Both the position numbers and the translations under genes were made by a program. This document shows, piece after piece, positions 7,289-35,583 of a stretch of 64,000 nt of DNA (its first letter is position 1; every line of letters begins with the position of its first letter). Source of the DNA: Actinotalea sp. Marseille-Q4924 (GTDB lineage Bacteria; Actinomycetota; Actinomycetes; Actinomycetales; Cellulomonadaceae); NCBI RefSeq assembly GCF_916618755.1, contig NZ_CAKAKB010000006.1, positions 62,001 to 126,000 on the forward strand, read 5' to 3'. The notes under the pieces are model-generated. The model did no database searches, was not told the DNA's origin, and was given only the letters and a program-made list of their open reading frames with translations.

Positions 7289-8325
7289 CACGGGCGCAGC
7301 AGGGTCTTGATCGCGCGCCGCTCGTCCATCGCGGCGTACCCCTCGGGAGCGCCGTCCAGCGGCAGCTCGAGGTCGAAGACGGGCGACGGGTCGATCGTGC
7401 CGGCGAGGACGTCCGCGAGGAGCTCGGGCAGGTAGGCGCGCACGGGCGCGACACCGCCGCGGACGGCGACGTTGTTGCTGAACATCGCGCGGATCGGCAG
7501 GCCGTCGTCGAGCCCGTTCGGCACCCCGACGTAGCCCACGGTGCCGCCGGGCCGCGCGATCGCCACCGCGGTGTCCCAGGACGACTGCATCCCGACGCAC
7601 TCCATGACGTGCGGCAGGCCGATGCCGTCCGTGAGCTCCTGGACGCGCGCGACGGCGTCGTCGCCCCGCTCGGGCACCACGTCGGTCGCGCCGAACCGAC
7701 GGCCGATCGCGATGCGGTCCTCGTGCCGCCCGAGCAGGACGATGCGCTCCGCGCCGAGGCGGTGCGCGGCGAGCACCCCGCACAGCCCGACGGCACCGTC
7801 GCCGATCACCGCGACGTGCGAGCCGGGCCCGACACCCGCCGCGAGCGCAGCGTGGTGCCCCGTGCCCATGACGTCGGAGAGCGCCAGCAGCGCGGTCAGC
7901 CGCTCGTCGTCGGGGCCGACGGGCGCGGCCACGAGGGTGCCGTCCGCGTACGGCACCCGGACGGCCTCGCCCTGGCCGCCGTCGGTGCCGTTCCCCCAGA
8001 TCCCGCCATGCACGCAGGACGTGTGCACGCCCGCCCGGCAGTGCACGCAGGTGCCGTCGCTCCAGGTGAACGGGGCGATGACGACGTCGCCGGGCCGGAC
8101 GGTCGTGACGTCGGCGCCGACCTCCTCGACCACGCCGAGGAACTCGTGACCGATGCGCGCAGGCCCGCCCTCACGCGGGCCGGGACGCCGGTACCCCCAC
8201 AGGTCGCTGCCGCAGATGCAGGAGAGGAGGACGCGGACGACGGCGTCGGTGCGCTCGGACAGGACCGGGTCCGGCACCTCCTCGACGCGGATGTCGGAGC
8301 CGCCGTGGATGAGGGTCGCCTTCAT
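7288..8325 (-). CDS. Zinc-dependent alcohol dehydrogenase, variant structural-zinc site
   Basis: The product has 345 residues. Catalytic-zinc motifs CICGSD and IGHEFLGVVEE are present, as is a nucleotide loop, IGDGAVGLCGVL. The structural zinc lobe reads SDGTCVHCRAGVHTSC, so only three of the usual four cysteines are kept and the first position is Asp or Ser. HGGIWGNGTDGGQGEAVRVPYAD is typical of a subgroup of actinobacterial MDR proteins often annotated as alcohol or threonine dehydrogenases. The ATG at 8325 begins the conserved MKATLIHGG. It is the first gene of a two-gene dehydrogenase operon. The substrate is unknown. Confidence 0.87.
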   Translation of the reverse strand: MKATLIHGGSDIRVEEVPDPVLSERTDAVVRVLLSCICGSDLWGYRRPGPREGGPARIGHEFLGVVEEVGADVTTVRPGDVVIAPFTWSDGTCVHCRAGVHTSCVHGGIWGNGTDGGQGEAVRVPYADGTLVAAPVGPDDERLTALLALSDVMGTGHHAALAAGVGPGSHVAVIGDGAVGLCGVLAAHRLGAERIVLLGRHEDRIAIGRRFGATDVVPERGDDAVARVQELTDGIGLPHVMECVGMQSSWDTAVAIARPGGTVGYVGVPNGLDDGLPIRAMFSNNVAVRGGVAPVRAYLPELLADVLAGTIDPSPVFDLELPLDGAPEGYAAMDERRAIKTLLRP

Positions 8326-20464: not shown

Positions 20465-21487
<1,023 letters not shown>

Positions 21488-21628
21488 GAAGACTCCTGCT
21501 CGATGAGGGGTGGGTTTTCCACGCCCATCCTGGCACGACCGCACCTGGGCACGCCGGGACCTCTCTCCCGTGGACGCGCCCGCACGACGTGCTCGCCCGG
21601 CACCTCGTCCGGATCCGTGGTGCGCCGC

Positions 21629-22945
21629 TCAGAGCTCCAGGAGGAGCGCCTCCCCCTGGCCGCCGCCGCCGCAGAGCCCCACGGCGGCACGGCCGCCCCC
21701 GCGGGCGTGGAGTGCGTGCGCGGCGTGCACGAGGAGCCTGGCCCCGGACGCGCCGATCGGGTGGCCGAGGGCGATGCCACCGCCGTCGGTGTTCACGGCC
21801 GACACGGGCACGCCCAGGTCCGCCGCCGACTGCGCCACGACCGCCCCGAACGCCTCGTTGATCTCGATGACGTCGAGATCGCCCACGTCCCAGCCCTGCC
21901 GCTCGAGCGCCGTCCGGATCGCCGCCGACGGCTGCGAGTGCAGCGCGGTGTCCGGCCCGGCCACCTGGCCCGCGGCCCGCACGGTCGCCAGCACCGTCCA
22001 CCCGGACTCCTCCGCGCGCCGGCGGGTCGTGACGACGAGCGCCGCGGCACCGTCGGAGATCGGCGAGGAGTTGCCGGCGGTGATCTGGCCGTCGGGGACG
22101 AAGGCGGGCCGCAGCCTCGCGAGCGTCTCCACCGTCGTCTCCGGCCGGATGCCCTCGTCGCGGTCGACGACCGTGTCGCCCTTGCGTCCCGGCACCGTCA
22201 CGGGCACGACGAAGGCCTTGAAGCGTCCCTCCTCCCACGCCGCGGCCGCACGCTGGTGCGACAGCGCCGCGACCTCGTCCTGCTGCTCGCGCGTGAGGCC
22301 GTACCGCTCCTGCGTCGTGCGGTCGGTGCACGTGCCCATCGACTCGCCCTCGTAGGCGTCGGTCAGACCGTCGTGGGCCATGTGGTCGAGCATCTGGATC
22401 GCGCCGTAGGCGGTCCCGGTGCGCGACCCGGGCAGCAGGTGGGGCGCGAGGGACATCGACTCCATGCCCCCCGCCACGACCACCTCGGCCTCGCCGGAGC
22501 GCAGCAGCCGGGCCGCGTCGATGACCGCGGTGAGCCCGGACAGGCAGACCTTGTTCACCGTGGTGGTGTGCGCGCGCATGCCGATGCCCGCCGCGAGCGA
22601 CGCCTGGCGGGCCGGGTTCTGACCGGCGCCGGCCTGGAGCACCTGCCCCAGGATCACCGCGTCGACCGCCTCGGCGGGCACGCCGGACTGCTCCAGCGCC
22701 CCGCGGATGGCGGTCGCGGCGAGCTGCGTGGCCGGGACCGTGGACAGGGCCCCGCGCAGCCGCCCCTGCGGCGTCCGCACCGCGCCGACGACGACGACGT
22801 CGTCCGGGCCGGCCGCCGACGTGGGCGTCCAGTGGGGTGTCGCCGCCTCCTCGACGTCGACCAGGGGGATCGAGCCGGTGGGCGGCGCGCCCTCGGGGAC
22901 GCCGCCCTCGTCGCGGCGGCCCTCGGGGCCGGTGGAGCTGCTCAT
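21629..22945 (-). CDS. Acetyl-CoA C-acetyltransferase (thiolase), last gene of the catabolic operon
   Basis: The product has 438 residues. Thiolase motifs: nucleophile Cys in [46 protein letters not shown] and [14 protein letters not shown]. The first 50 residues are a Gly/Glu/Pro-rich extension before [13 protein letters not shown]; the ATG at 22945 is supported by its 4-bp overlap with the CoA-transferase stop. In this operon it would split acetoacetyl-CoA into two acetyl-CoA. Closely related thiolases can work in either direction. Confidence 0.92.
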
Positions 22946-23604
22946 GCCGTCACCTCCACGGTCTCGACCGATCCCTCGACCCGGACCGGCGCACCGGTCC
23001 GCTCCACGACCTCGTCCGGCGTCACCCCCGGGGCCGTCTCGACGAGCGTCAGCCCGTCCGGCCCGACGTCCAGCACCGCGATGTCCGTGATGATCCGGTC
23101 GACGACGCCCCGACCGGTCAGCGGCAGCGCGCACTCGCGCACGACCTTCGGCGACCCGTCCTTCGCGTTGTGGGTCATGAGCACGACGACGCGCCGCGCG
23201 CCGTGGACGAGGTCCATGGCGCCGCCGGGGCCCTTGACCATCGCCCCCGGGATCATCCAGTTGGCGAGGTCGCCGTGCTCGGACACCTCCATGCCGCCCA
23301 GCACGGCGACGTCGATCTTGCCGCCGCGGATCATCCCGAAGCTCAGGGCGGAGTCGAAGAACGCCGCACCAGGCAGGACCGTGACGGTCTCCTTGCCGGC
23401 GTTGATGAGGTCCGGGTCGACCTCGTCCTCGGTCGGGTACGGCCCGACGCCGAGGATGCCGTTCTCGGACTGGAGCATCACGTGCCTGCCCTCGGGCAGG
23501 TAGTTCGGCACGAGCGTCGGCAGGCCGATGCCGAGGTTGACGTACGCGCCGTCGGGCAGCTCGAGCGCCGCCCGCGCCGCCATCTCCTCCCTGGTCAGCG
23601 CCAT
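22942..23604 (-). CDS. scoB: 3-oxoacid CoA-transferase, subunit B
   Basis: The product has 220 residues. The catalytic Glu lies in the conserved [10 protein letters not shown] segment. [47 protein letters not shown] and ERTGAPVRV are hallmark B-subunit sequences. With subunit A it moves CoA from succinyl-CoA to acetoacetate (or another 3-oxoacid). The ATG at 23604 is one base after the subunit A stop, and its own stop overlaps the thiolase start. PcaJ (3-oxoadipate) is a possible alternative, but the neighbouring 3-hydroxybutyrate dehydrogenase favours acetoacetate. Confidence 0.92.
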
Positions 23605-23605
23605 G

Positions 23606-24400
23606 TCAGGCCCCCTCTCCGCCGGGCGCGCCCGCGCGCACCGTCCGTCGCTCGATGCGCTTCTCGATGTCGCTGCCGACCTCGACCACCCGGTGCACGA
23701 AGACCCCGGGCAGGTGGACCTCGTCCGGGTCGAGCGCGCCCGGCTCCACCAGCTGCTCGACCTGGGCGATGCAGAGGCGCCCTGCCATCGCGGCCAGGGG
23801 CGAGAAGTTCCGGGCCGAGCGGTGGAAGACGAGGTTGCCGTAGCGGTCACCCACCTCGGCGTGGACGAGGGAGACGTCCGTCGTGACCGCCTCCTCGAGC
23901 ACGAACTCCCGCTCCTCGCCGTCGACGACGAACGTGCGCACCTCCTTGGGCGCGGAGGCGAGCGCGACGCCGCCGTCGGCGTCGTAGCGCTGCGGCAGGC
24001 CACCCTCCGCGACCTGGGTCCCCACGCCCGTCTGCGTGAAGAACGCCGCGATCCCGGACCCCCCGGCGCGCAGCTTCTCGGCGAGCGTGCCCTGCGGGGT
24101 CAGCTCGACCTCGAGCTCTCCGGCGAGGTAGCGGCGCGCGAACTCCTTGTTCTCCCCCACGTACGACGCGGTGATCCTCCGGATGCGGTCGGCGGCGAGC
24201 AGGACGCCCAGCCCCCAGTCGTCCACGCCGCAGTTGTTCGAGACGACGTGCAGGTCGCGCGTGCCCTGCTCCAGCAGCGCCGTGATGAGCGCCACGGGGT
24301 TGCCGCAGAGCCCGAAGCCGCCGACGGCGACGCTCGCTCCGTCCGGCACGTCCGCGACCGCGACCGCGGCGCTCGGGACGACCTTGTCCAACCGGGTCAC
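23606..24400 (-). CDS. scoA: 3-oxoacid CoA-transferase, subunit A
   Basis: The product has 264 residues. [23 protein letters not shown] is the CoA-binding N-terminus, and [58 protein letters not shown] are near-signature for the A subunit. The GTG at 24400 has GGAGG seven bases upstream and overlaps the stop of the hydrolase gene (GTGA). It functions as a dimer with subunit B in ketone-body use. Confidence 0.92.
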
Positions 24401-25467
24401 CGGTCCACCTCCGACGTCAGGTCGACGGTGTGCGGGGTCTCCGGCTCCGTCGACGGGTGACGCACCACCGAGCGACGCTGCTCGGGGTGCTGCTGGGCAT
24501 TCTCGTCGTCCCGGCGGCCGGAAGCGAACCGGCCGCCGTCGTCCACCGCCCCGCCGCCCGGGCGGCGCACGTGGTCGGCGACCGCGGCGGCACCGTGCGG
24601 TGCCATGACGACCGTGTAGTGGTTGACGCCCGGGACGTCGTGCACCTCGAGCCGCGGGAGCCGCTCCGACCACCCGGCGACGTGCCCCGGCGCGTAGAGC
24701 GGCTCGGCACCGAGCAGCCCCGCGGGCGCCCGCAGGAACGTCGTCGGCACGGCCAGCGCCTCGAGCGCGGGCAGGAGCGAGACCCCCGTGAAGAGCTCCG
24801 CCTGGTCCTCGCTCAGCGCCTCGATCCGCGCGGCGGGGCGCAGGCCGCCCGGCACGGGATCGACGTCGTGGTCGAAGTAGGCGCCGAGCCGTTCGGTCCA
24901 GTCGGCGGTGAACGCGGGGTGCGCCCGCCAGAACGCCCGGTACGCCTCGTGGTCCGCGAACGTCATCGACAGCCGCTGCGCGGCCGGTCCGAGGACCGCG
25001 GCCATCGCCGCGTCGAGGTCCACGCCCGCCGGCAGGGCCAGCGGGAGGCCGCCGTCGACGAGCACCAGCCGCTCCACGAGCACCGGATGACGGTGGGCCA
25101 GCACCACGGACACGAAGCCGCCCATCGAGTGGCCGACGACGACCGCGCGGCGGACCCCGAGGGCGGCCGCGAGCGCGGCGACGTCGTCGGCGTGCCGGGG
25201 CATGCCGTACGGGCCGGGCAGGACGTTGCTGCGCCCGCGGCCCCGCAGGTCCGGCGCGACGACGCGGACGCCCGGCAGCCGGGCGGCCAGCTCGCAGAAG
25301 GCCAGGTGGTGGGCCGTGACGCCGTGGATCGCGAGCACGGTGCCGACGGCCCCGGCCCCGGTGGGCCCCAGCGGCTCCCACACGCCGGCGTGGAGGAGCC
25401 CGCCGTCGACGGGCACGTCGACGGATCGGTAGACGTGCGTGGTGGTGGCGGTGAGGTCCGCGGTCAT
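24397..25467 (-). CDS. Alpha/beta-fold hydrolase
   Basis: The product has 356 residues. The oxyanion region is AIHGVTAHH, the nucleophile elbow GHSMGGFVS (Ser), and the catalytic His is probably in VPGVNHYTVV. DLRGRGRS is the usual strand-4 segment. There is no signal peptide, so it acts inside the cell. The last 50 residues (from about 308) form a charged, low-complexity tail that such hydrolases normally lack. Embedded between bdhA and scoA, it may hydrolyse a hydroxyacyl ester, dimer or lactone imported by the transporter; this is inference. The start at 25467 overlaps the bdhA stop. Confidence 0.83.
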   Translation of the reverse strand: MTADLTATTTHVYRSVDVPVDGGLLHAGVWEPLGPTGAGAVGTVLAIHGVTAHHLAFCELAARLPGVRVVAPDLRGRGRSNVLPGPYGMPRHADDVAALAAALGVRRAVVVGHSMGGFVSVVLAHRHPVLVERLVLVDGGLPLALPAGVDLDAAMAAVLGPAAQRLSMTFADHEAYRAFWRAHPAFTADWTERLGAYFDHDVDPVPGGLRPAARIEALSEDQAELFTGVSLLPALEALAVPTTFLRAPAGLLGAEPLYAPGHVAGWSERLPRLEVHDVPGVNHYTVVMAPHGAAAVADHVRRPGGGAVDDGGRFASGRRDDENAQQHPEQRRSVVRHPSTEPETPHTVDLTSEVDR

Positions 25468-26231
25468 CGGGCCGACCACCCGCCGTCGAGCGTGTACGAG
25501 GCGCCGGTGGCCATCGCCCCGGCCGGCCCCACGAGCCACAGCACCAGCGAGGCGACCTCCTCCGGCTCGACCATGCGCTTGACGGCCTGCTCCGTGAGCA
25601 GGACCTTCTCCAGCACCTCCTCCTCGGTGATGCCGTGCACGCGCGCCTGGTCGGCGAGCTGGTGCTGCACGAGCGCGGTCCGCACGTAGGCGGGGTTGAC
25701 GCAGGTGCTGGTCACGCCGTGCGCAGCACCCTCCAGCGCCGTGACCTTGCTCAGGCCCTCCAGCCCGTGCTTGGCCGCCACGTACGCGGACTTGTACGCG
25801 GACGCCACGAGGCCGTGCACCGAGGAGATGTTGACGACGCGCCCCCACCCGCGGGCGTACATGTGCGGCAGGGCGGCCCGGACCAGGAGGAACGGCGCCT
25901 CCAGCATGATGCGCTGGATGCGCCGGAAGTCCTCCGGGTCGAAGTCCTCGATCGGGCTGACCTTCTGCAGGCCCGCGTTGTTGACGAGGACGTCGACCTC
26001 CAGGCGCAGGTCGTCGAGCGCACGCGTGTCGTCGAGGTCCACGACCCAGGCCTCGCCCCCGACCTCGCGCGCGACGACCCCCGCCGCCTCGGCGTCCCGG
26101 TCCGCGACGACGACGTCGGCGCCGGCTGCGGCCAGGGCGCGCACGCACGCGGCGCCGATGCCCGCTCCCCCGCCCGTGACGAGCGCGCGCCGGCCCGCGA
26201 GGTCGCGACCGCCCGGCGGCGTGGTCGTCAT
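25464..26231 (-). CDS. bdhA: 3-hydroxybutyrate dehydrogenase (SDR)
   Basis: The product has 255 residues. The cofactor loop is VTGGGAGIGAACV, NNAGLQKVSPIEDF is characteristic of D-3-hydroxybutyrate dehydrogenases, and the catalytic set is SSVHGLV with SAYVAAKHG (Ser, Tyr, Lys). NPAYVRTALVQHQLADQA also matches that family. It would oxidise (R)-3-hydroxybutyrate to acetoacetate with NAD+. Start and stop both overlap their neighbours by 4 bp (TetR and hydrolase). The assignment relies on family motifs and on the adjoining CoA-transferase and thiolase. Confidence 0.88.
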   Translation of the reverse strand: MTTTPPGGRDLAGRRALVTGGGAGIGAACVRALAAAGADVVVADRDAEAAGVVAREVGGEAWVVDLDDTRALDDLRLEVDVLVNNAGLQKVSPIEDFDPEDFRRIQRIMLEAPFLLVRAALPHMYARGWGRVVNISSVHGLVASAYKSAYVAAKHGLEGLSKVTALEGAAHGVTSTCVNPAYVRTALVQHQLADQARVHGITEEEVLEKVLLTEQAVKRMVEPEEVASLVLWLVGPAGAMATGASYTLDGGWSAR

Positions 26232-27004
26232 GACTGCTCCTCCTGGGTGGCGGGAACGGGGGTGGTGTCGCCCGGACCGGTGGATTCGGGCGCGAGGGCC
26301 CGCTCGATGAGACGCATGGTCGCCTCGAAGATCAGCGGCGGGACGCCGTCGGGCCGGTCGTCGGCGCCGTCCCGGTTCGGCTCGGCCGGGTCCGCGTCGC
26401 CCCACAGCGCCCAGCGCATCCCGACGATCTCCCCGATGCCCATGAGCGCCCAGGCGAGGACCTCGGGGTCGATGGGGGCCAGCTCGCCGCGGGCCTGGGC
26501 GGCCCGCAGGCCGTCGACGTAGCCCTCGGCGATCCGTTCGTAGTGCCAGCGCAGCATCTGCGGCGCGACGAACTCCGCCTGCCGCACGATCCGGTACAGC
26601 GCCGGGTTCTGCGCCGCGAACCGGAAGAAGGCCCGGAAGCCCGCACGCTCCGCGGCGATGCGGTCCGACTCGGCGCTCGACGCCTCGAACATCGCGTGGC
26701 GGACCTGGGAGTTCAGGTCCCGCACGACCTCCTCGAACACCTCCTGCTTGGAGGAGAAGTAGAGGTAGAACGTGCCCTGCCCGACCTCGGCCGCCTCGGT
26801 GATCTTGACGATGGACGCGTCGTGGTAGCCGTGGTCGGCGAAGACCTGCGCGGCCACCCGCAGGAGGCGGGCACGGGTGCGCGTGCCCTTCGTCGTCCGC
26901 GGCGCGGCGGCGCGTGAGCCGGTCGCGGCGGCCCCGTCCGGGTGCCGGTCCGGGTCCGGGTCCGGGGGAGCCCCGGTAGGGCGGTTCGTGTCCGGTGCGG
27001 TCAT
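26228..27004 (-). CDS. TetR-family regulator of the hydroxyacid operon
   Basis: The product has 258 residues. The helix-turn-helix spans about residues 42-88: TRARLLRVAAQVFADHGYHDASI, then EVGQGTFYLYFSSKQEVFEEV. Residues 1-40 are a Pro/Asp-rich tail. The C-terminal ligand domain is helical and ends in a disordered segment. It lies inside the operon, overlapping the acyl-CoA ligase stop and the bdhA start by 4 bp each. It is the obvious candidate to bind the inverted repeat within the promoter at 33572-33600. The inducer might be an acyl-CoA or hydroxy acid. Confidence 0.88.
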   Translation of the reverse strand: MTAPDTNRPTGAPPDPDPDRHPDGAAATGSRAAAPRTTKGTRTRARLLRVAAQVFADHGYHDASIVKITEAAEVGQGTFYLYFSSKQEVFEEVVRDLNSQVRHAMFEASSAESDRIAAERAGFRAFFRFAAQNPALYRIVRQAEFVAPQMLRWHYERIAEGYVDGLRAAQARGELAPIDPEVLAWALMGIGEIVGMRWALWGDADPAEPNRDGADDRPDGVPPLIFEATMRLIERALAPESTGPGDTTPVPATQEEQS

Positions 27005-28599
27005 CGGAGGCTCCCGTCGTCGTCGCTCGTCAGGGCGGAGCGGCGCAGCTTGTGCAGGGCGGTGCGCGGCAGCGCGTCCACGACGGTGACGTGGCGCGGG
27101 GCCTTGAACGCCGCGAGGTGTGCGCGGCAGTGGGCGACGACGTCGTCGGTGGTGACCGACGCGCCGGGCTCGAGGACGACGTAGGCGTGGCCGACCTGAC
27201 CCCAGCGCGGGTCGGGCACGCCGACGACGGCGGCCTCGGCGATCGCGGGGTGCTGGGTGAGCACAGCCTCGACCTGGGCCGGGGAGATGTTCTCCCCGCC
27301 GGAGATGTACATGTCGTCGAGCCGGTCGACGACGCGGAACCAGCCTTCGGCGTCGCGCTCGACGTAGTCGCCGGTGTGCAGCCAGCCGTCCCGGCGGGCG
27401 GCACGGGTGCTCTCCGGGTCCCGGAAGTACTCGGCGAAGACCGCCGGCCCGCGGACCAGCAGCTCGCCGCGCGCCGGGCCGTGCAGCGGCCGACCGGTCA
27501 GCGGGTCCCGCACGGCGACGTCGACGTACGGGTACGGCTTGCCGACGGAGCCGACGTGCTTCTCCGCGTCCGCCGGCGGGAGCCCCAGCACGTTGGGGCC
27601 GGCCTCGGTGAGCCCGTAGCCCTGCAGGATCCGCACGCCGCGGCCGTGCCACGTCCGCAGCAGGTCCTCCTCCATGGGCGCCCCGCCGACGACGGCGTAG
27701 CGCAGGCTCGAGAGGTCCGCGTCGGCGAAGGCCGGGTGGTCGGCCATGAGGCGGTACGTCGCGGGGACGCCCATGAGCGTCGTCACGCCGTGGCGCGCCA
27801 GGAGCCCCAGCGCGCGACCGGCGTCGAACTCGCTCTCGAGGACGACGGTCGCCCCGGTCCACCACGCGAGCAGCGGCTGGACGTTCCAGCCGCCGACGTG
27901 GAACTGCGGCAGGACGGCCAGGACGACGTCGTCGGTCCCGAGCGGCGCGACGCCGTTGAGGGACAGGTTCGTCCAGAAGCAGTTGGCGTGCGTGAGGACC
28001 ACGCCCTTGGGCGAGCGGGAGGTGCCCGACGTGTAGATCTGGAGCAGGGCGTCGTCGTCGTGGACAGCCCGCCGGCCGGCGTCGGGGGGCGCCTCGAGAC
28101 GCACCGGACCGGGGACGTGCTGCTCGACGCCGTCCGGCCCGAGGAGCTCCACCGCGGGCGCGGGGGACGACGACCCCACGGCGTCCTGCGCCGCCGCCAC
28201 GAGCGGACGCTCCGCGAGCAGCAGGACGGCGCGGCTGTGCCGCAGCTGGTGCTCCAGCTCCTCCGGCGCGAGCCGCCAGGACAGCGGGACGAGCACGAGG
28301 CCGGTCCGGGCGCACGCCATGAAGAGGACGACGTGGTCGGTGCTGTTCCGGGTCAGCGTCGCGACCCGGTCGCCGACGAGGTAGCCCGCGCGCTGCAGCC
28401 GGCGGGCCAGCGCCTCGGCGCGCGCGTCGAGCTCCGCGTAGGTCGTGGTCCGGCCGTCCTCGACGACGGCGGCGTGGTCGGGAGCGAGGCGTGCGCGGTC
28501 GCAGACCCAGCGGCCGAGCGTGTGCAGCCCGTCCGCCGACCGGTCCTCGTGGCGTGCCGCGCCGATGCCGGGCTCCGTGGGCACGGTCGGGGGGATCAC
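27001..28599 (-). CDS. Acyl-CoA synthetase / AMP-dependent ligase
   Basis: The product has 532 residues and belongs to the ANL superfamily. The P-loop is YTSGTSRSPKGVVLTHAN. A5 is GYGLTEAG, A7/A8 is GWLHTGDYVERDAEGWFRVVDR, and the core is DDMYISGGENISP. The A10 Lys is near LPRTALHKLRR, where the usual Gly is His. Length and motifs fit medium- or long-chain-type acid:CoA ligases, not acetoacetyl-CoA synthetase, which is longer. The GTG start overlaps the permease stop (GTGA). It would activate the imported acid as its CoA thioester. Confidence 0.9.
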   Translation of the reverse strand: MIPPTVPTEPGIGAARHEDRSADGLHTLGRWVCDRARLAPDHAAVVEDGRTTTYAELDARAEALARRLQRAGYLVGDRVATLTRNSTDHVVLFMACARTGLVLVPLSWRLAPEELEHQLRHSRAVLLLAERPLVAAAQDAVGSSSPAPAVELLGPDGVEQHVPGPVRLEAPPDAGRRAVHDDDALLQIYTSGTSRSPKGVVLTHANCFWTNLSLNGVAPLGTDDVVLAVLPQFHVGGWNVQPLLAWWTGATVVLESEFDAGRALGLLARHGVTTLMGVPATYRLMADHPAFADADLSSLRYAVVGGAPMEEDLLRTWHGRGVRILQGYGLTEAGPNVLGLPPADAEKHVGSVGKPYPYVDVAVRDPLTGRPLHGPARGELLVRGPAVFAEYFRDPESTRAARRDGWLHTGDYVERDAEGWFRVVDRLDDMYISGGENISPAQVEAVLTQHPAIAEAAVVGVPDPRWGQVGHAYVVLEPGASVTTDDVVAHCRAHLAAFKAPRHVTVVDALPRTALHKLRRSALTSDDDGSLR

Positions 28600-29771
28600 G
28601 CGCGCCCCCGGCCGTCACGCCCGGGTCGCAGGCGGGCGGCGGCGCCCGCCAGGCCACCCGGCATGAAGAGGACGACGAGCACGAACAGCGTCCCCAGCGT
28701 GAAGAGCGGCTCGGACAGCGGCACGTGCAGCACGGCGGGGAGGCCGTCCACGAGGTCGGACGACGCGAAGACCGAGAGCCGCTGGTCGAGGAGCGTGTAG
28801 AGGACGGCCCCGACGACGGCGCCCCAGCGCGACCCGACCCCACCGAGCACCACCATGACGAGCAGGGTGATCGTGAGGTCGGCCGACGTGATCGTCGGCA
28901 CGGCCTGGGACTGCAGGAGCAGGTACGCCATGCCGACGACGGCGGCGAGGGCCCCGGCGACGGCGAACGTCAGCAGCCGGATGAGGTAGGGCTGCTGACC
29001 GATCACCCGGACGCGCAGCTCGTTCTCGCGGGTCGCCTCCACGACGTGGCCGGCGCGGGAGCGCTGGAACCACGTCACGACGACGTAGACGACGACGAGC
29101 ACCGCGAGCGCCAGCCAGTAGACGTTGCGGGTGTCGGCCACGCCCACGAGCCAGTCCGGGACGTGGGCGGTGCGGAGCCCGACGCCCTCCTCGCCCCCGG
29201 TCCAGCCGCCGAGGTCACGGCGCGCGACGACGTTCCCGGCCTGGGCGAAGGCGAGGGTCACCATCGCGAAGGACACCCCGGACACGCGCAGGGAGATCGC
29301 CCCGACGAGGTTCGCCAGCACCACGACACCCACGAGGACCAGCACGCCCGCGACGAGCAACGGCACGTCCGTGCGCTGCAGCACGACCGCGAGCCCGTAG
29401 GCCCCGGCGGCGAAGTACAGCGCGTGACCGAAGCTGAGCATGCCGGCGACGCCGTAGAGCAGGTGGTAGCTCAGCGCGAGCGCGGCGTAGAGGAGGCAGA
29501 GCGCCATGAGGTGGAGCGCGCCCGGCGTGTAGGTGGGGCCGGGCAGCACCCCGGGCACGTGGAGGTTGAAGAGCGGCAGGCAGGCGAGGACCACCGCGGC
29601 GACGGCGGCCCCGACCCACGGCGCCGCGCCGCGTCGGCGCGACGGCGGGGCGGCCAGGCGGGCGGCGAGCCCCGCGCCGTCGGACGGGGCGCCGCCGTCG
29701 GCGCGCACGGCCTCGGGCCGGGAGTCGCTCGTCGGCGGGGTGCTCGTGGGCGTGCTCATGGGGGTGGTCAT
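28596..29771 (-). CDS. HAAT-family ABC permease (LivM type)
   Basis: The product has 391 residues with about 8-10 membrane segments. ALSYHLLYGVAGMLSFGHALYFAAGAYGLAV and VEATRENELRVRVIGQQPYLIRLLTFAVAGALAAVVGMAYLL are LivM signatures. A Ser/Thr/Pro-rich tail of about 45 residues precedes the first segment. It pairs with the LivH-type permease. The family mostly moves branched-chain amino acids, amides or small organic and aromatic acids; the local context favours an organic acid. The 4-bp overlap with livH supports the ATG at 29771. Confidence 0.9.
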   Translation of the reverse strand: MTTPMSTPTSTPPTSDSRPEAVRADGGAPSDGAGLAARLAAPPSRRRGAAPWVGAAVAAVVLACLPLFNLHVPGVLPGPTYTPGALHLMALCLLYAALALSYHLLYGVAGMLSFGHALYFAAGAYGLAVVLQRTDVPLLVAGVLVLVGVVVLANLVGAISLRVSGVSFAMVTLAFAQAGNVVARRDLGGWTGGEEGVGLRTAHVPDWLVGVADTRNVYWLALAVLVVVYVVVTWFQRSRAGHVVEATRENELRVRVIGQQPYLIRLLTFAVAGALAAVVGMAYLLLQSQAVPTITSADLTITLLVMVVLGGVGSRWGAVVGAVLYTLLDQRLSVFASSDLVDGLPAVLHVPLSEPLFTLGTLFVLVVLFMPGGLAGAAARLRPGRDGRGRA

Positions 29772-30643
29772 GCCGCCTTCGCTCCCATCAGGCCGGACGG
29801 ACGCACGAGGAGGACGAGGGCCAGCGCGAGCACCGCGATGAGGTCCCCGATGCCGAGGTAGTAGTTGGCGAACTGCTGCGGGACGGCCACGAGGACGGCC
29901 GCGAGGGCGGCACCGGTGAGCGACCCGAGCCCGCCGATGACGGTGACGATGAACGCGAAGATGAGCAGCGTGCCGCCGAGGTGCGCGGAGACGTACCCGA
30001 AGTACTGCGACGCGAGCACGCCGCCCAGGCCGGCTGCCGCGCCGCCGATCGTGAAGACGAGGGTGAAGGACTTCCGGACGTCGATCCCGAGGGCGGTCAC
30101 CATGGACCGGTTCTCCACGCCGGCCCGGATCACGAGCCCGTAGCGCGTGTGCTTGAGGAAGAGGACCAGCCCCACCAGCACCGCGACGGCGGCGCCGATC
30201 GCGAGGAACCGGTCGTTCGGGACGTTCGCGCCCAGGACCGCCGTGGTCCGGTCCAGCCACGCCGGACCGGAGATGAAGATCGGGTCCGTGCCCCACACGC
30301 CCTCGTAGAGGGCGACCGTCACGAGCCCGAGCCCGACGGTGATGAGCACCTGCTCGATGTGCCGCTCGTACAGCGGGCGGATGAGGAGCAGCTCGCTGAG
30401 GGCGGCGATCGCCGCGCCGGCGAGCGCCCCGACGACGACGGCCAGGGTGAAGCCGCCCCAGCTCGTCGCGCCCATGAGCCGCGAGACCTCGAACCCGACG
30501 AAGGCCCCGAGGGTGAGGAAGGCGCCGTGCGCGAAGTTGAGGACGCCCATGAGGCCGTAGATGAGGGACAGGCCCGACGCGACGAGGAAGTACAGCGCCC
30601 CGAGGCCGAGCCCGGTGATGAGCAGCAGGACGGTGATGCTCAC
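29768..30643 (-). CDS. HAAT-family ABC permease (LivH type)
   Basis: The product has 291 residues and about 8 membrane segments. GLSLIYGLMGVLNFAHGAFLTLGAF is the defining N-terminal motif, and ENRSMVTALGIDVRKSFTLVFTIGGAAAGLGGVL is the cytoplasmic coupling region for the ATPases. The start overlaps the LivF stop, the end overlaps the LivM start. It forms the pore with LivM. Confidence 0.92.
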   Translation of the reverse strand: MSITVLLLITGLGLGALYFLVASGLSLIYGLMGVLNFAHGAFLTLGAFVGFEVSRLMGATSWGGFTLAVVVGALAGAAIAALSELLLIRPLYERHIEQVLITVGLGLVTVALYEGVWGTDPIFISGPAWLDRTTAVLGANVPNDRFLAIGAAVAVLVGLVLFLKHTRYGLVIRAGVENRSMVTALGIDVRKSFTLVFTIGGAAAGLGGVLASQYFGYVSAHLGGTLLIFAFIVTVIGGLGSLTGAALAAVLVAVPQQFANYYLGIGDLIAVLALALVLLVRPSGLMGAKAA

Positions 30644-31392
30644 GGGCGGGCCTCCTCGGCGGTGCGGTGGGTGCGCGGGGGTGCGGCACCGGGCTCCTCG
30701 GCGTGGACGCCCAGGTAGCGCCTGACGGCCGCCTCGTCGCCGAGCAGGTCGGCAGCGGGACCGGCGTGCACGACCCGCCCGCCGTCGATGACGACGACGT
30801 CCTGCGCCAGGCGCTCGATCACCTGGAGGTTCTGCTCGACGAGCAGGATCGGCACGGTTCGTGCCGCCTCCTCCAGCGCCACCGCCAGCTCCGTGACGAT
30901 CTTCGGCGCGAGTCCCTTGGTCGGCTCGTCCACGAGGAGGAGCCGGTTGCGGTTGAGCAGGGCGCGGGCCATCGACAGCATCTGCTGCTGCCCGCCGGAC
31001 AACGTCCCCGCGCGCTGCGCCGAGCGTCGGACGAGGTCCGGGAACAGGGCCTCCACGAGGTCCCGCCGCGGCTCGCGGTCGCGGACGGCGAGCCGCAGGT
31101 TCTCCTCGACGGTGAGCCCCGTGAAGACCTCGCGGTCCTCGGGCACGTAGCCGACGCCGCGCCGGACGATCCGGTGGGTCGGCTCGCGGTCGATCGGCTC
31201 GCCGTCGAGCAGGACGGTGCCGGTGCGGTCGATGAGCCCCAGGACCGCCTTGATCGTGGAGGTCTTGCCGACGCCGTTGCGCCCCAGCACCGCCGTGACC
31301 CCGGTCGCCGGGACGGTGAACGAGACGTCCTCGACGACCTGCTGGCCGGCGATGGACGCGGACAGGTTCCGGACCTCCAGGACGGCGCTCAT
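30640..31392 (-). CDS. HAAT-family ABC ATPase (LivF type)
   Basis: The product has 250 residues. Walker A is GRNGVGKTSTIK, the signature is LSGGQQQMLSMARAL and Walker B is LLLVDEPTKGLAP. GVGYVPEDREVFTGLTVEENL is a LivF hallmark. It hydrolyses ATP with LivG to drive import. Its last 20 residues are a Pro/Arg-rich tail. The start overlaps the LivG stop by 4 bp. Confidence 0.92.
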   Translation of the reverse strand: MSAVLEVRNLSASIAGQQVVEDVSFTVPATGVTAVLGRNGVGKTSTIKAVLGLIDRTGTVLLDGEPIDREPTHRIVRRGVGYVPEDREVFTGLTVEENLRLAVRDREPRRDLVEALFPDLVRRSAQRAGTLSGGQQQMLSMARALLNRNRLLLVDEPTKGLAPKIVTELAVALEEAARTVPILLVEQNLQVIERLAQDVVVIDGGRVVHAGPAADLLGDEAAVRRYLGVHAEEPGAAPPRTHRTAEEARP

Positions 31393-32180
31393 GCGGCCGT
31401 GCCCAGATAGGCGCTCTGCACGCGCGGGTCGGCCATGATCGTCGCCGGGTCGTCGAACGCGAGCACGCGGCCCTGGTCCAGGACCGCGACGCGCTCCACG
31501 AGGCCCAGGACGACGTCGATGTGGTGCTCCACCATGAGGACGGTGCACGCGTGGTCGCGGTGCAGCCGCCGGATGACGTCGCTCAGGCCGGGGACGTCCG
31601 CGCGGGCGACGCCCGCCATGGGCTCGTCGAGCAGGATGACCGAGGGCTCCATGGCGAGCAGCACGGCGATCTCCAGCTTGCGCTTGTCGCCGTGCGAGAG
31701 GCCGCCGGCGAGGACGTCCGCACGGTGCGCCAGGTCCACGTCCTCGAGGTGACCCAGGGCCGTCGTCGTCGCCTCGTCGCCCCGGCGCGGGAAGCGCAGG
31801 AACGAGAGGTTCCCTCCGAGGCGGCGCTGCGCGGCGAGGCGGACGTTCTCGAGGACGCTCAGCCCGGCGAAGAGGCTCGACGTCTGGAACGTGCGGCCCA
31901 GCCCGGCCTGCGCGCGCCGGTGGATCGGCGCGTGGGTGATGTCCGCGCCGTCGAGCAGGACGCGGCCAGCCGTCGCCCGGTGCACGCCGGAGATCATGTT
32001 GAACAGCGTGGTCTTCCCCGCACCGTTCGGCCCGATGACGCCGATCATCTCGCCGGGGCGGACGTCGAGGTCGACGTCGCTGAGGATGTGGATGCCGCCG
32101 ACCTGGAACGACAGCTGCTCGACGACGAGCGCGCCGCCCGCGGTGCGGGTGCCGCCGGCCGACGACGAGGGGGTGGGCAT
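31389..32180 (-). CDS. HAAT-family ABC ATPase (LivG type)
   Basis: The product has 263 residues. Walker A is GPNGAGKTTLFN, the signature motif has the LivG form LSHGDKRKLEIAVLL, and Walker B is VILLDEPMAGV. The C-terminus VQSAYLG is a LivG ending. The ATG at 32180 follows GGGAGA on the minus strand. It lies 79 bp after the binding-protein gene, with a strong hairpin between them that probably lowers its expression relative to the binding protein. Confidence 0.92.
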   Translation of the reverse strand: MPTPSSSAGGTRTAGGALVVEQLSFQVGGIHILSDVDLDVRPGEMIGVIGPNGAGKTTLFNMISGVHRATAGRVLLDGADITHAPIHRRAQAGLGRTFQTSSLFAGLSVLENVRLAAQRRLGGNLSFLRFPRRGDEATTTALGHLEDVDLAHRADVLAGGLSHGDKRKLEIAVLLAMEPSVILLDEPMAGVARADVPGLSDVIRRLHRDHACTVLMVEHHIDVVLGLVERVAVLDQGRVLAFDDPATIMADPRVQSAYLGTAA

Positions 32181-32219
32181 GGGCTCTCCCGTTCGGAGGG
32201 TGCGGGTGCGTCGTGGAGG

Positions 32220-32256
32220 GGGTGCCGCGCCGGGGTGCGACCCCGGCGCGGCACCC
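32220..32256 (-). terminator. Intercistronic hairpin between the binding-protein gene and livG
   Basis: A perfect 16-bp G:C-rich stem (32220-32235 with 32241-32256) closes a five-base loop. It follows the binding-protein stop (32260) and precedes the LivG start (32180). Such hairpins usually act as partial terminators or 3'-stabilisers, keeping the periplasmic-type binding protein in excess over the membrane components. Confidence 0.8.
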
Positions 32257-32259
32257 GCG

Positions 32260-33504
32260 TCAGCTCGCCTCGGGCGGGGCGATGTCCTCGCCCGCGACCT
32301 CGGCGACGAGCTCGGGGGTCCAGCCGCCGTTGCCGTCGGACACGAGCCGCACCTGGTACATGGGCTGGATGAGGGCGTGGTCGGACGCGCGGATCTCGTA
32401 CGAGCCCTTGGGTCCGTCGAACTGCCAGCCCTCCAGGGCCGTGCGCATGGCGTCGACGTCGTCCGCGCCGCCCGCCTCCTCGATCGCCCGCACGATCATC
32501 TGCGCGGCGACGAAGCCGTCGGGGGTGAAGAGGTCGACGGTGCCGCCGGCGCCCTCGACGTGCTCGGCCATCGCCTGGGCGACCTCGTTGTCCGCCGCAC
32601 CGCCGAAGAAGTGGTTGAGGAAGTCGATCTTCTCCGACGCGGCCCCGAAGGCCCCGTAGGTGGCGACGTCACCGAGGCCGGTGACGACCGTGGTGCCGTC
32701 GAGGACACCCTGCTGGTCGAGCGCCTGCCACATCGCGCCCGACGTCGCCCCGGCCCACGCGACGAACACCATCTCCGGCTGGGCCTGGAGCACCTGCGCC
32801 GCGAACGGCGTGAACTCCGTGACGTCCTCCGGCACGAGGACGCTGCTGACCTCGGCGCCCTGCGCACCGAGCACGCCCTGGACGGCGGCGAGGTTGCCCT
32901 GGCCGAACGCGTTGTCCTGGGCGAAGACGACGACCTTCTTGCCCTCGGGCTCGATGAACGAGCCGGCGGTGGCGACGTCCTGCAGGGACTGGCGGCCGGA
33001 GCGGAACGTGTACTCGTTGACGCCGCTGATGGCGTCGGCGGCGGCCGGCCCGGAGATGTAGAGGACCTCGTTCTGCGCCGCCTGCTCGGCGAGCGCCAGC
33101 GCGACGCCCGACGACGCCGTGCCCGCGAGGATCGTGTAGCCCTGACCGATGAGGTCGCGGGCCTGCGCGACGGCGCGGTCGGTGTCGCCGCCGTCGTCGG
33201 TGATGGTGATGTTCAGCGGCCGGCCGTCGACCTCGCCCGTGCCGTCGGTGGCGAAGTCGAACCCCGCCTCGAGGCCGGCGAGGTACGCCTCGCCGTAGGT
33301 GGCCAGCGGGCCGGTGGTGGACGTGATGATGCCGACGTCGATCGGGTCCCCGCCCGCCGCCTCGTCGTCGGACTGCTCGGCGCCGTCGGCGGTGGCACCC
33401 GGTGCGGGGTCCTCCGAGGCGTCCGGGCTGGGGGCGCAGGCGCCCAGGGCGAGGGCCGTCGTCGTGACGACGGCCAGCGCGAGAGACCTCTTCGTGACGC
33501 GCAT
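32260..33504 (-). CDS. HAAT-family substrate-binding lipoprotein (LivK-like)
   Basis: The product has 414 residues. MRVTKRS plus a hydrophobic core ends in the lipobox LALGAC, so it is lipid-anchored outside the membrane. An acidic Asp/Glu/Ala linker of about 30 residues follows, then a type I periplasmic fold starting IDVGIITSTTGPLATYG. DDGGDTDRAVAQARDLI and YISGPAAADAI are typical of the family. The fold is used for branched-chain amino acids and also for amides, aromatic acids and other organic acids. It is the first gene of the long catabolic operon and has its own promoter immediately upstream. Confidence 0.92.
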   Translation of the reverse strand: MRVTKRSLALAVVTTTALALGACAPSPDASEDPAPGATADGAEQSDDEAAGGDPIDVGIITSTTGPLATYGEAYLAGLEAGFDFATDGTGEVDGRPLNITITDDGGDTDRAVAQARDLIGQGYTILAGTASSGVALALAEQAAQNEVLYISGPAAADAISGVNEYTFRSGRQSLQDVATAGSFIEPEGKKVVVFAQDNAFGQGNLAAVQGVLGAQGAEVSSVLVPEDVTEFTPFAAQVLQAQPEMVFVAWAGATSGAMWQALDQQGVLDGTTVVTGLGDVATYGAFGAASEKIDFLNHFFGGAADNEVAQAMAEHVEGAGGTVDLFTPDGFVAAQMIVRAIEEAGGADDVDAMRTALEGWQFDGPKGSYEIRASDHALIQPMYQVRLVSDGNGGWTPELVAEVAGEDIAPPEAS

Positions 33505-33571
33505 GAGCGGACCTTCCTGGTACGGCGACGCCGTCGTCGCCGAAAACTGAGAGGTGATTCAGGTCTTGGGA

Positions 33572-33600
33572 ACGATGCCGCGAGAACCTCTCGATGTCAA
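33572..33600 (-). promoter_or_regulatory. Promoter of the hydroxyacid operon
   Basis: On the minus strand a perfect -35 TTGACA (33595-33600) is followed by a 17-base spacer and CATCGT (33572-33577) as -10. The start point would fall near 33565, giving a leader of about 60 bases to the binding-protein ATG. A perfect inverted repeat lies inside the spacer. Confidence 0.65.
33581..33593. promoter_or_regulatory. Candidate TetR operator in the promoter spacer
   Basis: CGAGA-ACC-TCTCG is a perfect 5-bp inverted repeat with a three-base centre, located between the -35 and -10 boxes. A related AGAGGT element recurs on the other strand at 33550-33556, within a CTGA-N8-TCAG repeat just downstream of the promoter. 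The operon-encoded TetR protein is the likely binder; this is inferred from position. Confidence 0.5.
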
Positions 33601-33625
33601 GACACCGGGTTCCGTGCGCGGGTCG

Positions 33626-34303
33626 TCAGGCGTGCTGCGTGATCCACGCGTGCATCGCGATGGCCGCCGCCGCGCCCGCGTTGATGGACCGCGTCGAGCC
33701 GAACTGGCGGATGTGCAGCACCACGTCGCACGCCGCGACGGCCTCGTCCGACAGGCCCGCACCCTCCTGACCGAGCAGGAGCACGCACGCGCGCGGCAGG
33801 GCGTACCCCTCGAGCGGCACCGACCCCGCGACGTTGTCGAGGCCGACGAGCGGGAGCCCTGCCCCCGCCGCCCAGCCCGCGAGCGCCGCGACGTCCGGGT
33901 GGTGGCGCACGTGCTGGTACCGGTCCGTCACCATCGCCCCGCGCCGGTTCCACCGCCGACGCCCGACGACGTGCACCTGCGCCGCGAGGAACGCGTTCGC
34001 GGTCCGGACCACGGACCCGATGTTGAGGTCGTGCGCCCAGTTCTCGATCGCCACGTGGAAGTCGTGGCGGCGCGTGTCGAGGTCCGCGACCACCGCCTCC
34101 ACCGTCCAGTACCGGTACCGGTCCACGACGTTGCGGCGGTCGCCGTGGGCCAGCAGCTCGGGGTCGTAGCGCGGGTCGAGCGGGGCGTCGGTGCCCGCAC
34201 CGCTGCGCGGCCACGCGTCGGACCCCCCCGGCCACGGACCGACGCCGACCTCCCGCGCCGGCCGGGCGTCGTCGTCGGCGGTCAGCGCCCCACCCCGCGC
34301 CAC
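33626..34303 (-). CDS. TrmH/SpoU-family RNA 2'-O-methyltransferase
   Basis: The product has about 225 residues. SPOUT motifs: NIGSVVRTANAF (motif 1), LLLGQEGAGLS (motif 2) and IRQFGSTRSINAGAAAAIAM (motif 3). The family methylates ribose 2'-OH in tRNA or rRNA with S-adenosylmethionine through a trefoil-knot fold. The start is uncertain. The conserved part begins near DPRYDPELLAHGDRRNVVDRY; a GTG at 34303 lies within the ABC permease gene end, and a CTG at 34285 overlaps the permease stop. Either way it appears translationally coupled to the ABC exporter genes, which may be coincidental. Confidence 0.85.
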   Translation of the reverse strand: MARGGALTADDDARPAREVGVGPWPGGSDAWPRSGAGTDAPLDPRYDPELLAHGDRRNVVDRYRYWTVEAVVADLDTRRHDFHVAIENWAHDLNIGSVVRTANAFLAAQVHVVGRRRWNRRGAMVTDRYQHVRHHPDVAALAGWAAGAGLPLVGLDNVAGSVPLEGYALPRACVLLLGQEGAGLSDEAVAACDVVLHIRQFGSTRSINAGAAAAIAMHAWITQHA

Positions 34304-35583
34304 GCCTGCCGCGCCGGCAGCCGCGACGCCGTGTGCAGGACCGCGTTGCGGTACAGCCGCGCCCCCAGCGCGACGAACGCGACGCCCGTCGCGAGCACCA
34401 CCAGCGCCGCGACGAACGGCTCCCACGGGTCCGCGTTGCCCAGGACGATGCGCGCCGGCATGAGCAGCGGGGCGGTGAACGGCACGTAGGACAGGATCCG
34501 CTGCACGGGGCCCGGCTCGATCGCGAAGATCGCGGTGAAGAACGGCACGACGACGAGGACCTGCATGACGACGGTCGTCGCGTTGAGGTCCTCCACGCGG
34601 GACGCCAGCGCCCCGGCGGCCGCCCACAGGCACGCGAGCATGACGAACCCGAGCAGGAAGAAGACGACGAACCAGCCGGACGCCGCGAGGACCTGCCCGA
34701 GGAGGTCCCCCCGACCCATGAGCATCGCACCGACGAGCCCGGCCCCCACGATGACGACGATCTGGCCCACCGCCATGACGGTGTTGCCGAGGACCTTGCC
34801 GGCCAGCAGCCAGCGCACCGGCAGGGCCGCGACGAGCAGCTCCACGACCCGGGACTGCTTCTCCTCCACGACGCTCTGCGCGATGGACATGCCGAACGTC
34901 AGGACCGAGATGTAGAAGAGGAACGCGAAGACGAGGACGAGGAGCTCCGGGGGCACGGAACCGGTCGGCTGCGCGTCCAGGACCGTCGTCCGCGGCTGTG
35001 TCGGGTCGATGAGCGCCATGACGTCCGCGCGGCTGAGCCCGGCCTCCTCGGCGGCGCGGGCGACCTGCAGCTGCGCGGAGGCGGCGCCGACGAGCACGTC
35101 CACCTCGGGCGGCACGCCCTCGCGTCCGAGCACCTGCAGGGCGGCGAGGTCGTCACCGACGACGGCGGCCGCGACGTCCTCGTCGAGGACGAGCCGCCGG
35201 GGGTCGGCCTCGGGTTCGAGGACGACGAGCTCGAGGTCGGCGGCCGGCAGGCCGGCGGGCTCGAGGAGCGCGGTGACGGGCGGCACGTCGTCGTCGTCCT
35301 GCTGCGCCTGGCGACCCAGCTCGGCGGCGAGCTCGACCGTCTGCTGGGCGGCGTCGCCCTGGACGGCGACCCGGAGCACGGGGACCTGCTGGCTCAGCAG
35401 GACCGGCACGACCGTCGCGACGGCCACGAGGAGGAGGAGGAAGGCGGTCGTGACGAGGAACGCCTTGTCGCGGAGCTTGACGCGGATCTCCCGGCCGGCG
35501 ACGACCCGGACGGCCGACAGCGCGCTGAGGCCGTCGTCGCGACCGGGGCTCACGTGGGGGGTCGCGTCCGGGGTCGTGCTCAT
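34282..35583 (-). CDS. ABC-2 type exporter permease (NatB-like)
   Basis: The product has 433 residues. A first membrane segment (about 43-62, after REIRVKLRDKAFLVTTAF) is followed by a large extracytoplasmic domain (to about 210), then five further segments. FGMSIAQSVVEEKQSRVVELLVAALPVRWLLAGKVLGN is the ABC2 consensus region of NatB/YhaP-type proteins. It pairs with the preceding ATPase gene, overlapping by 4 bp. NatAB-type exporters are linked to sodium or drug extrusion; the substrate here is unknown. Confidence 0.88.
   Translation of the reverse strand: MSTTPDATPHVSPGRDDGLSALSAVRVVAGREIRVKLRDKAFLVTTAFLLLLVAVATVVPVLLSQQVPVLRVAVQGDAAQQTVELAAELGRQAQQDDDDVPPVTALLEPAGLPAADLELVVLEPEADPRRLVLDEDVAAAVVGDDLAALQVLGREGVPPEVDVLVGAASAQLQVARAAEEAGLSRADVMALIDPTQPRTTVLDAQPTGSVPPELLVLVFAFLFYISVLTFGMSIAQSVVEEKQSRVVELLVAALPVRWLLAGKVLGNTVMAVGQIVVIVGAGLVGAMLMGRGDLLGQVLAASGWFVVFFLLGFVMLACLWAAAGALASRVEDLNATTVVMQVLVVVPFFTAIFAIEPGPVQRILSYVPFTAPLLMPARIVLGNADPWEPFVAALVVLATGVAFVALGARLYRNAVLHTASRLPARQAWRGVGR

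Follow-up and report, generated by a model that had tools for sequence, protein, structure and literature searches.

The question raised by this locus of Actinotalea sp. Marseille-Q4924 is what an importer of the HAAT class carries when its genes are joined in one operon to those of ketone-body breakdown. The operon consists of twelve open frames, all on the minus strand and spanning positions 33504 down to 21629 of the window, by which is meant the whole 64,000-nucleotide stretch analysed (C6:62001-126000; G+C content 74.5%) in a genome of 3.64 Mb. The original prediction tied a HAAT importer dedicated to 3-hydroxybutyrate, acetoacetate, an oligomer or a related ester to this route, and that tie is supported by gene conservation, by a phylogenetic profile and by operator data, the ligand itself being predicted. 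We consider it likely that the operon serves to scavenge products of poly-3-hydroxybutyrate (PHB) made outside the cell, and that its importer would take up short (R)-3-hydroxybutyrate oligomers or esters.

The gene order claimed for the operon was recovered with every frame open. The substrate-binding protein (Peripla_BP_6/HAAT class, 414 amino acids, 32260..33504), with an N-terminus that appears lipoprotein-like by eye, would capture a breakdown product that is short and acidic; an oligomer or ester of 3-hydroxybutyrate is the likeliest, although the monomer is possible. Import would follow through ATPases of the LivG type (263 amino acids, 31389..32180) and LivF type (250 amino acids, 30640..31392) and permeases of the LivH type (291 amino acids, GTG start, 29768..30643) and LivM type (391 amino acids, 28596..29771), all assigned by family models. 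Next come an AMP-forming acyl-CoA ligase (532 amino acids, 27001..28599), to which family models give no clear type, and a TetR-family regulator (26228..27004), also assigned by family model. An alpha/beta hydrolase (356 amino acids, 24397..25467), predicted to be a cytoplasmic 3-hydroxybutyrate oligomer or ester hydrolase, would cut the imported product to (R)-3-hydroxybutyrate, which the (R)-3-hydroxybutyrate dehydrogenase (Bdh; 255 amino acids, 25464..26231) encoded just before it would oxidize to acetoacetate. A SCOT-type 3-oxoacid CoA-transferase (subunit A, 264 amino acids, 23606..24400; subunit B, 220 amino acids, 22942..23604) would convert acetoacetate to acetoacetyl-CoA, and an acetoacetyl-CoA thiolase-type acetyltransferase (438 amino acids, 21629..22945) would yield acetyl-CoA.

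Homologs of the binding protein were searched for at three taxonomic levels, with 200 genomes for the family, 396 for the order and 394 for the class (E ≤ 1e-40 for family and order, ≤ 1e-30 for class), and 86 genomes matched, the window genome included. From these, 71 loci were analysed, one per genome (from the family 24 of 27, from the order 29 of another 39 and from the class 18 of another 20), leaving out the window genome, G130 and G150 with their cut contigs, ten order-level and two class-level genomes. A second, named set of 80 loci, the best among the matches listed, overlaps the 71 in part, 65 of its loci having both 10-kb flanks. Genes at the loci were counted by tblastn, together with two motifs in the case of Bdh; a gene caller, error-prone in G+C-rich DNA, served only for spotting neighbours. 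LivGFHM were identified beside the binding protein in all 71 loci, the hydrolase in 68, Bdh in 60, the ligase in 53, TetR in 48, the thiolase in 37 and CoA-transferase A and B in 35. Among loci of the window's family with long flanks, the binding protein, LivGFHM, ligase, TetR, Bdh, both CoA-transferase subunits and thiolase are complete in 24 of 24, with the hydrolase in 23. The named loci with full flanks contain the hydrolase in 64/65 and Bdh in 51/65 among the matches listed, 10 kb downstream sometimes falling short of Bdh.

A search for the gene order in other Actinobacteria had been proposed as a check, and the linkage of importer and catabolic genes was found to be kept in the 71 loci through several rearrangements. 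Bdh may follow TetR or an inserted MHS carrier, or stand on the opposite strand with a PucR-type regulator, and the thiolase may be divergent; in a family with genomes of 1.4–1.9 Mb (L153-L156, L158) the hydrolase and Bdh are divergent from the binding protein in 5/5 loci. This small-genome family gives the impression of ketone-body scavenging. Across the 200 genomes of the window's family, Bdh (E ≤ 1e-50) was identified in 27/27 genomes with the binding protein vs 13/173 without it, and within the genus the 2 of 19 genomes that have one also have the other.

The assignment of Bdh, SCOT and thiolase to the ketone-body route holds by family models, by ranking of PDB sequences and by the residues of Bdh. 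Bdh passes the PRK12429 model "3-hydroxybutyrate dehydrogenase" (261.6 vs 258 bits) and lies slightly below the cut-off of TIGR01963 (301.8 vs 307.05 bits), and each of the 13 PDB sequences that match it at under 1e-40 bears the name 3-hydroxybutyrate or hydroxybutyrate dehydrogenase. Its counterparts of the known substrate residues, Gln94, Ser142, His144, Lys152, Tyr155 and Gln196, are invariant in 12/12 aligned proteins, and the Trp187 position is Tyr in ten of the twelve. CoA-transferase A passes TIGR02429, B passes TIGR02428 and the thiolase passes TIGR01930; the thiolase is nearest in PDB to acetyl-CoA acetyltransferases/thiolases and misses the cut-off of the acetyl-CoA C-acetyltransferase equivalog PRK08235 (414.8 vs 526). 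The pcaI/scoA and pcaJ/scoB models cannot tell Pca from Sco; in PDB, subunit A ranks nearest to SCOT chains, and with scores of 287.6 vs 597 for the thiolase against PcaF and 59.9 vs 255.85 for the hydrolase against PcaD, a beta-ketoadipate (Pca) reading was rejected. The hydrolase is an Abhydrolase_1/6 protein without clear type, reaching 42.3 bits against a cut-off of 300 with i_nPHAscl, the model of intracellular depolymerases of short-chain-length polyhydroxyalkanoates (scl-PHA).

Upstream of the binding protein and directly after a putative -10 element, a palindrome of the form AACCTGAA-N6-TTCAGGTT, or a near form of it, was identified in the relatives; in the window it reads GACCTGAATCACCTCTCAGTTT and lies at the expected transcription start (33544..33565, minus strand) as a putative TetR operator. 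It is present in 48/48 TetR-bearing loci (at most 5 mismatches to the reference) and in 0/23 loci without TetR (at least 8 mismatches). At no more than 2 mismatches the window genome contains only the site at 33544-33565, and the same search, extended to 41 whole genomes (the importer is present in 37 and absent from 4 congeners), returned 34 sites in 33 genomes. Of these sites, 33 lie ahead of the binding protein. The four importer-less congeners gave no site, and neither did a reversed-pattern control in all 41 genomes. With a matrix derived from the first set, the operator was found among the matches listed in 63/64 full-flank TetR loci of the named set. In the sole exception, Tessaracoccus L184, the operon begins with the SCOT gene and an operator lies about 25 bp ahead of it, at 7301, again among the matches listed; the single full-flank named locus without TetR is likewise without an operator, and six cut loci with no visible TetR have one. 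The TetR protein would act at this palindrome, placed over the start of transcription, and keep the operon repressed as long as no inducer is present.

The original prediction also had the operon read from one promoter, of which a part stands. A TTGACA element followed by a 17-bp spacer and a weak -10 element, CATCGT, lies upstream of the binding protein (33572..33600, minus strand), and a TTGAC hexamer recurs within 200 bp upstream of its start in 24/24 loci of the same family; a strict sigma-70 scan of 21300-33900 finds no promoter.

The nature of the substrate is suggested in part by depolymerase-family genes of the relatives. An esterase of the PHB-depolymerase family was identified in 25 of the 71 loci, 18 of a first type and 7 of a second; of the first type, 17 stand divergent to the binding protein in loci of the window's family, and one lies within the operon in another family. 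Four scanned representatives (L054, L034, L281, L145) pass TIGR01840 and NF050058, and the N-termini of these esterases are signal-like as judged by eye. The PDB chain nearest to the first type (L054) is 8daj, "Esterase, PHB depolymerase family". A second, weaker operator copy lies between the binding protein and the divergent esterase in 15/17 such loci vs 0/31 other TetR loci, where a first-order random model of 1.37 Mb gives 0.4 expected matches at the threshold used for this copy. The 34th site of the genome-wide search falls on another contig of G005, where an unlinked gene of the depolymerase family probably starts about 110 bp further on. In these relatives the same operator would thus also face a secreted depolymerase-family esterase, and from the second copies and the G005 site the TetR protein probably controls importer and depolymerase jointly.

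The window genome gave no match to PF10503, NF050058 or TIGR01840 and none to PHB synthase (PhaC_N). PHB synthesis and secretion of a depolymerase of this family are thus both improbable in this host, and the substrate is therefore probably not PHB of its own. Presence of a depolymerase-like esterase anywhere in the genome was tried as a marker and rejected as uninformative: NF050058 matches 97/200 genomes of the family at 1e-20, 67 of them over the cut-off, a count probably inflated by plant-polymer esterases. A wider proposal is that of a widespread actinobacterial polymer-to-acetyl-CoA regulon for exogenous PHB, in which an oligomer-dedicated HAAT importer, a secreted depolymerase and an intracellular hydrolase would answer to one TetR/operator pair and some members, such as the window host, would live only on the oligomers of others; to this we give even chances.

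That the importer serves the free monomer instead, (R)-3-hydroxybutyrate or acetoacetate, with hydrolase and ligase kept for side substrates, is the best of the alternatives and in our view an unlikely one. Bdh, SCOT and thiolase do act on the monomer directly, and in 3/5 loci of the small-genome family tblastn places an acetoacetate--CoA ligase after LivM (of the remaining two, one is truncated at that point), the scanned protein passing TIGR01217 with 692 vs 521 bits. However, it is the hydrolase that proves the most faithful partner of the importer (68/71 vs 60/71 for Bdh), and the monomer seems to be served otherwise, by carriers found both where the importer is missing and, in 8/71 loci, beside it. 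Bdh occurs without the importer in 13 genomes of the window's family; six such loci (L282-L287) were fetched, and their MHS-Bdh-(AtoE)-SCOT A/B-thiolase sets represent the same catabolic block as in the window operon. They differ in that secondary carriers replace the HAAT importer, of the MHS type in 6/6 and of the AtoE type in 4/6 (thiolase in 5/6), and in that hydrolase, depolymerase and operator were not found in the stretches. These carriers are candidates for monomer uptake, which would leave oligomers or esters to the HAAT importer. Taken together, the constancy of the hydrolase, the depolymerase-family esterases and the MHS carriers of the importer-less sets argue for oligomers or esters over free 3-hydroxybutyrate.

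Somewhat less probable still is import of another ester or hydroxy acid, such as an ester from plants or lipids or a different 3-hydroxyacid, that would yield 3-hydroxybutyrate or acetoacetate while the ligase activates the other part. It would account for a ligase kept in 53/71 loci that PHB leaves unexplained, the secreted esterases could be of feruloyl or acetylxylan type, and alphaproteobacterial relatives combine the importer with a hydrolase, a ligase, an enoyl-CoA hydratase and MaoC. The divergent esterase of the window's family points the other way, being nearest in PDB to a PHB-depolymerase-family esterase, passing the scl-PHA depolymerase model and having the second operator copy.

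The importer itself was identified as HAAT by its Peripla_BP_6 binding protein, two ATPases and LivH/LivM permeases, all five being present in 71/71 relatives. The binding protein scores well over the cut-off of Pfam PF13458 (199.9 vs 31.7 bits; match at G000:C6:94329-95345, window 32329-33345), and its closest solved relatives, and so the nearest known structures, are 3n0x (E 1.8e-41) and 3nnd (E 1.6e-40), both presumably from Rhodopseudomonas palustris. In alignment with Escherichia coli LivJ, which may be one residue off at such distance, Tyr202 is replaced by Ala or Ser and Glu226 by Thr in 15/15 homologs of the binding protein, and Ser79 is retained in 15/15. Tyr202 and Glu226 are the ammonium ligands of LivJ; with both replaced, an acid without an amino group fits as the ligand. 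An ordinary branched-chain amino acid importer of the LivJ/LivK kind, beside the catabolic genes by chance, is very improbable and was rejected, since, although models of the LivG/F/H/M and LivJ/K types are among the nearest curated ones for the transporter parts, the amino-acid binding-protein model gives 49.5 bits, far below its cut-off of 477, the ammonium-binding positions are replaced and the catabolic association is conserved across the class sample.

A number of observations weigh against the operon as a scavenger of PHB products. The ligase has no assigned role. Bdh was not seen in 11/71 stretches, some of them short; nine of these genomes have it elsewhere and two have none at E ≤ 1e-50. 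A depolymerase of the family is absent from the window genome and was seen in only 25 of the 71 loci, the second-type esterase (L145) has a feruloyl esterase, 8iy8, as its nearest PDB chain, and the family also includes feruloyl and acetylxylan esterases, so that PHB activity of the relatives' enzymes is a prediction. Four of the 37 importer genomes lack a palindrome match at 2 mismatches or fewer, and the operator stands in front of unlinked Bdh genes in 0/9 cases, so TetR is not tied to Bdh in itself. The residue argument is weakened by an Asp within four residues of the LivJ Glu226 position in some homologs, that of the window included. More remote, plasmid-borne relatives of the binding protein (31-45% identical; 5/7 looked at) sit with enoyl-CoA hydratase, MaoC and ligase genes or with others, and not with Bdh-SCOT-thiolase. 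Finally, the loci are related by descent; the counts and the Fisher values are not independent and relatedness inflates them.

Among known systems, the ABC cluster of R. palustris with the binding proteins RPA3723-3725 is presumably of the HAAT class. It is similar to the window in that an importer adjoins a CoA-dependent catabolic operon (pimFABCDE) for something other than an amino acid, and differs in serving fatty and dicarboxylic acids, with no PHB genes in the portion of its description consulted (PMC3223731). The assumption of amino acids as the usual cargo of HAAT importers proved weak: as far as the sections consulted go, the R. palustris set of 22 takes other ligand classes too, its ligands including other amino acids and aromatic, fatty and dicarboxylic acids, and HAAT binding proteins for non-amino-acids are thus already known (PMC3223731). 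For 3-hydroxybutyrate, hbtABC of Ruegeria pomeroyi is described, in the excerpt available, as the only confirmed bacterial uptake system (PMC10130141). Set beside the window importer by that description, it shares dedicated uptake, but of the PHB monomer, and is alphaproteobacterial (SPO2571-2573; PMC10130141); that excerpt mentions neither a transporter class nor a connection to a depolymerase, hydrolase or TetR operator. The bhbP D-beta-hydroxybutyrate permease of Pseudomonas putida, annotated for monomer uptake in the part of the source available, is a permease and not a binding-protein-dependent system (PMC6296734). No report of an ABC importer, of the HAAT class or any other, for 3-hydroxybutyrate, PHB oligomers or other PHB products was found in the open-access literature, subscription journals lying outside the search.

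A conserved, regulated candidate importer with a defined operator in many actinobacterial genomes makes the uptake of PHB products, a little-known step in the recycling of the polymer, testable. If the proposal for this operon is true, the label "branched-chain amino acid transporter" on such loci would be corrected, and the operon would mark out PHB scavengers, among them ones that lack a depolymerase.

The operon occurs in 2/19 congeners, and the binding protein of one of them (G130) is 92% identical to that of the window. When Georgenia loci (L163-L166) were compared with the remaining named loci, two short loci from metagenome-assembled genomes set aside, the window ligase, hydrolase and thiolase were nearest to Georgenia among the matches listed (68-72%, 64-69% and 71-76% vs at best 64%, 59% and 65% elsewhere). 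In the same comparison, the binding protein is equally near to Georgenia and to others (75% each) and both CoA-transferase subunits are slightly nearer to non-Georgenia loci. Horizontal gain of the operon is possible on these figures.

Several loci depart from the common form. A GAF/PucR-type regulator lies near Bdh in 12/71 loci (L127, L131-L134, L144-L147, L149-L151), none of which has a TetR gene or the palindrome. In an Agromyces locus (L205) the ligase, TetR and operator were not found, and importer, Bdh, hydrolase, SCOT and a divergent thiolase are retained. The alphaproteobacterial plasmids L085, L086 and L088 contain a related importer together with an alpha/beta hydrolase, TetR, enoyl-CoA hydratase, AMP ligase and MaoC, genes that may form a hydratase-based route for (R)-3-hydroxyacids.

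The tight packing claimed for the operon was confirmed, with 4-bp overlaps at nine of the ten junctions counted from LivG (LivG/F, F/H, H/M, M/ligase, ligase/TetR, TetR/Bdh, Bdh/hydrolase, hydrolase/CoA-transferase A and CoA-transferase B/thiolase) and a 1-bp gap at the remaining one, between CoA-transferase A and B. The binding protein and LivG are separated by a 79-bp gap that holds a G+C-rich hairpin (32220..32256, minus strand; minimum free energy of a 91-nt stretch -52.3, z -4.3). A role as terminator was rejected on account of the missing T run and of poor conservation, the hairpin being mostly unconserved with a perfect stem of at least 8 after the stop of the binding protein in 10/70 relatives; it is very stable and may give higher expression of the binding protein than of the other genes. 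A scan of 21300-33900 found no terminator-like sites, a weak negative as shuffles average 1.3. Directly downstream of the operon lies a gene for a class II fructose-bisphosphate aldolase (20465-21544, minus strand), and upstream a frame on the same strand (33626-34633) has a C-terminal part that resembles, by eye, an RNA methyltransferase of the SpoU/TrmH type.

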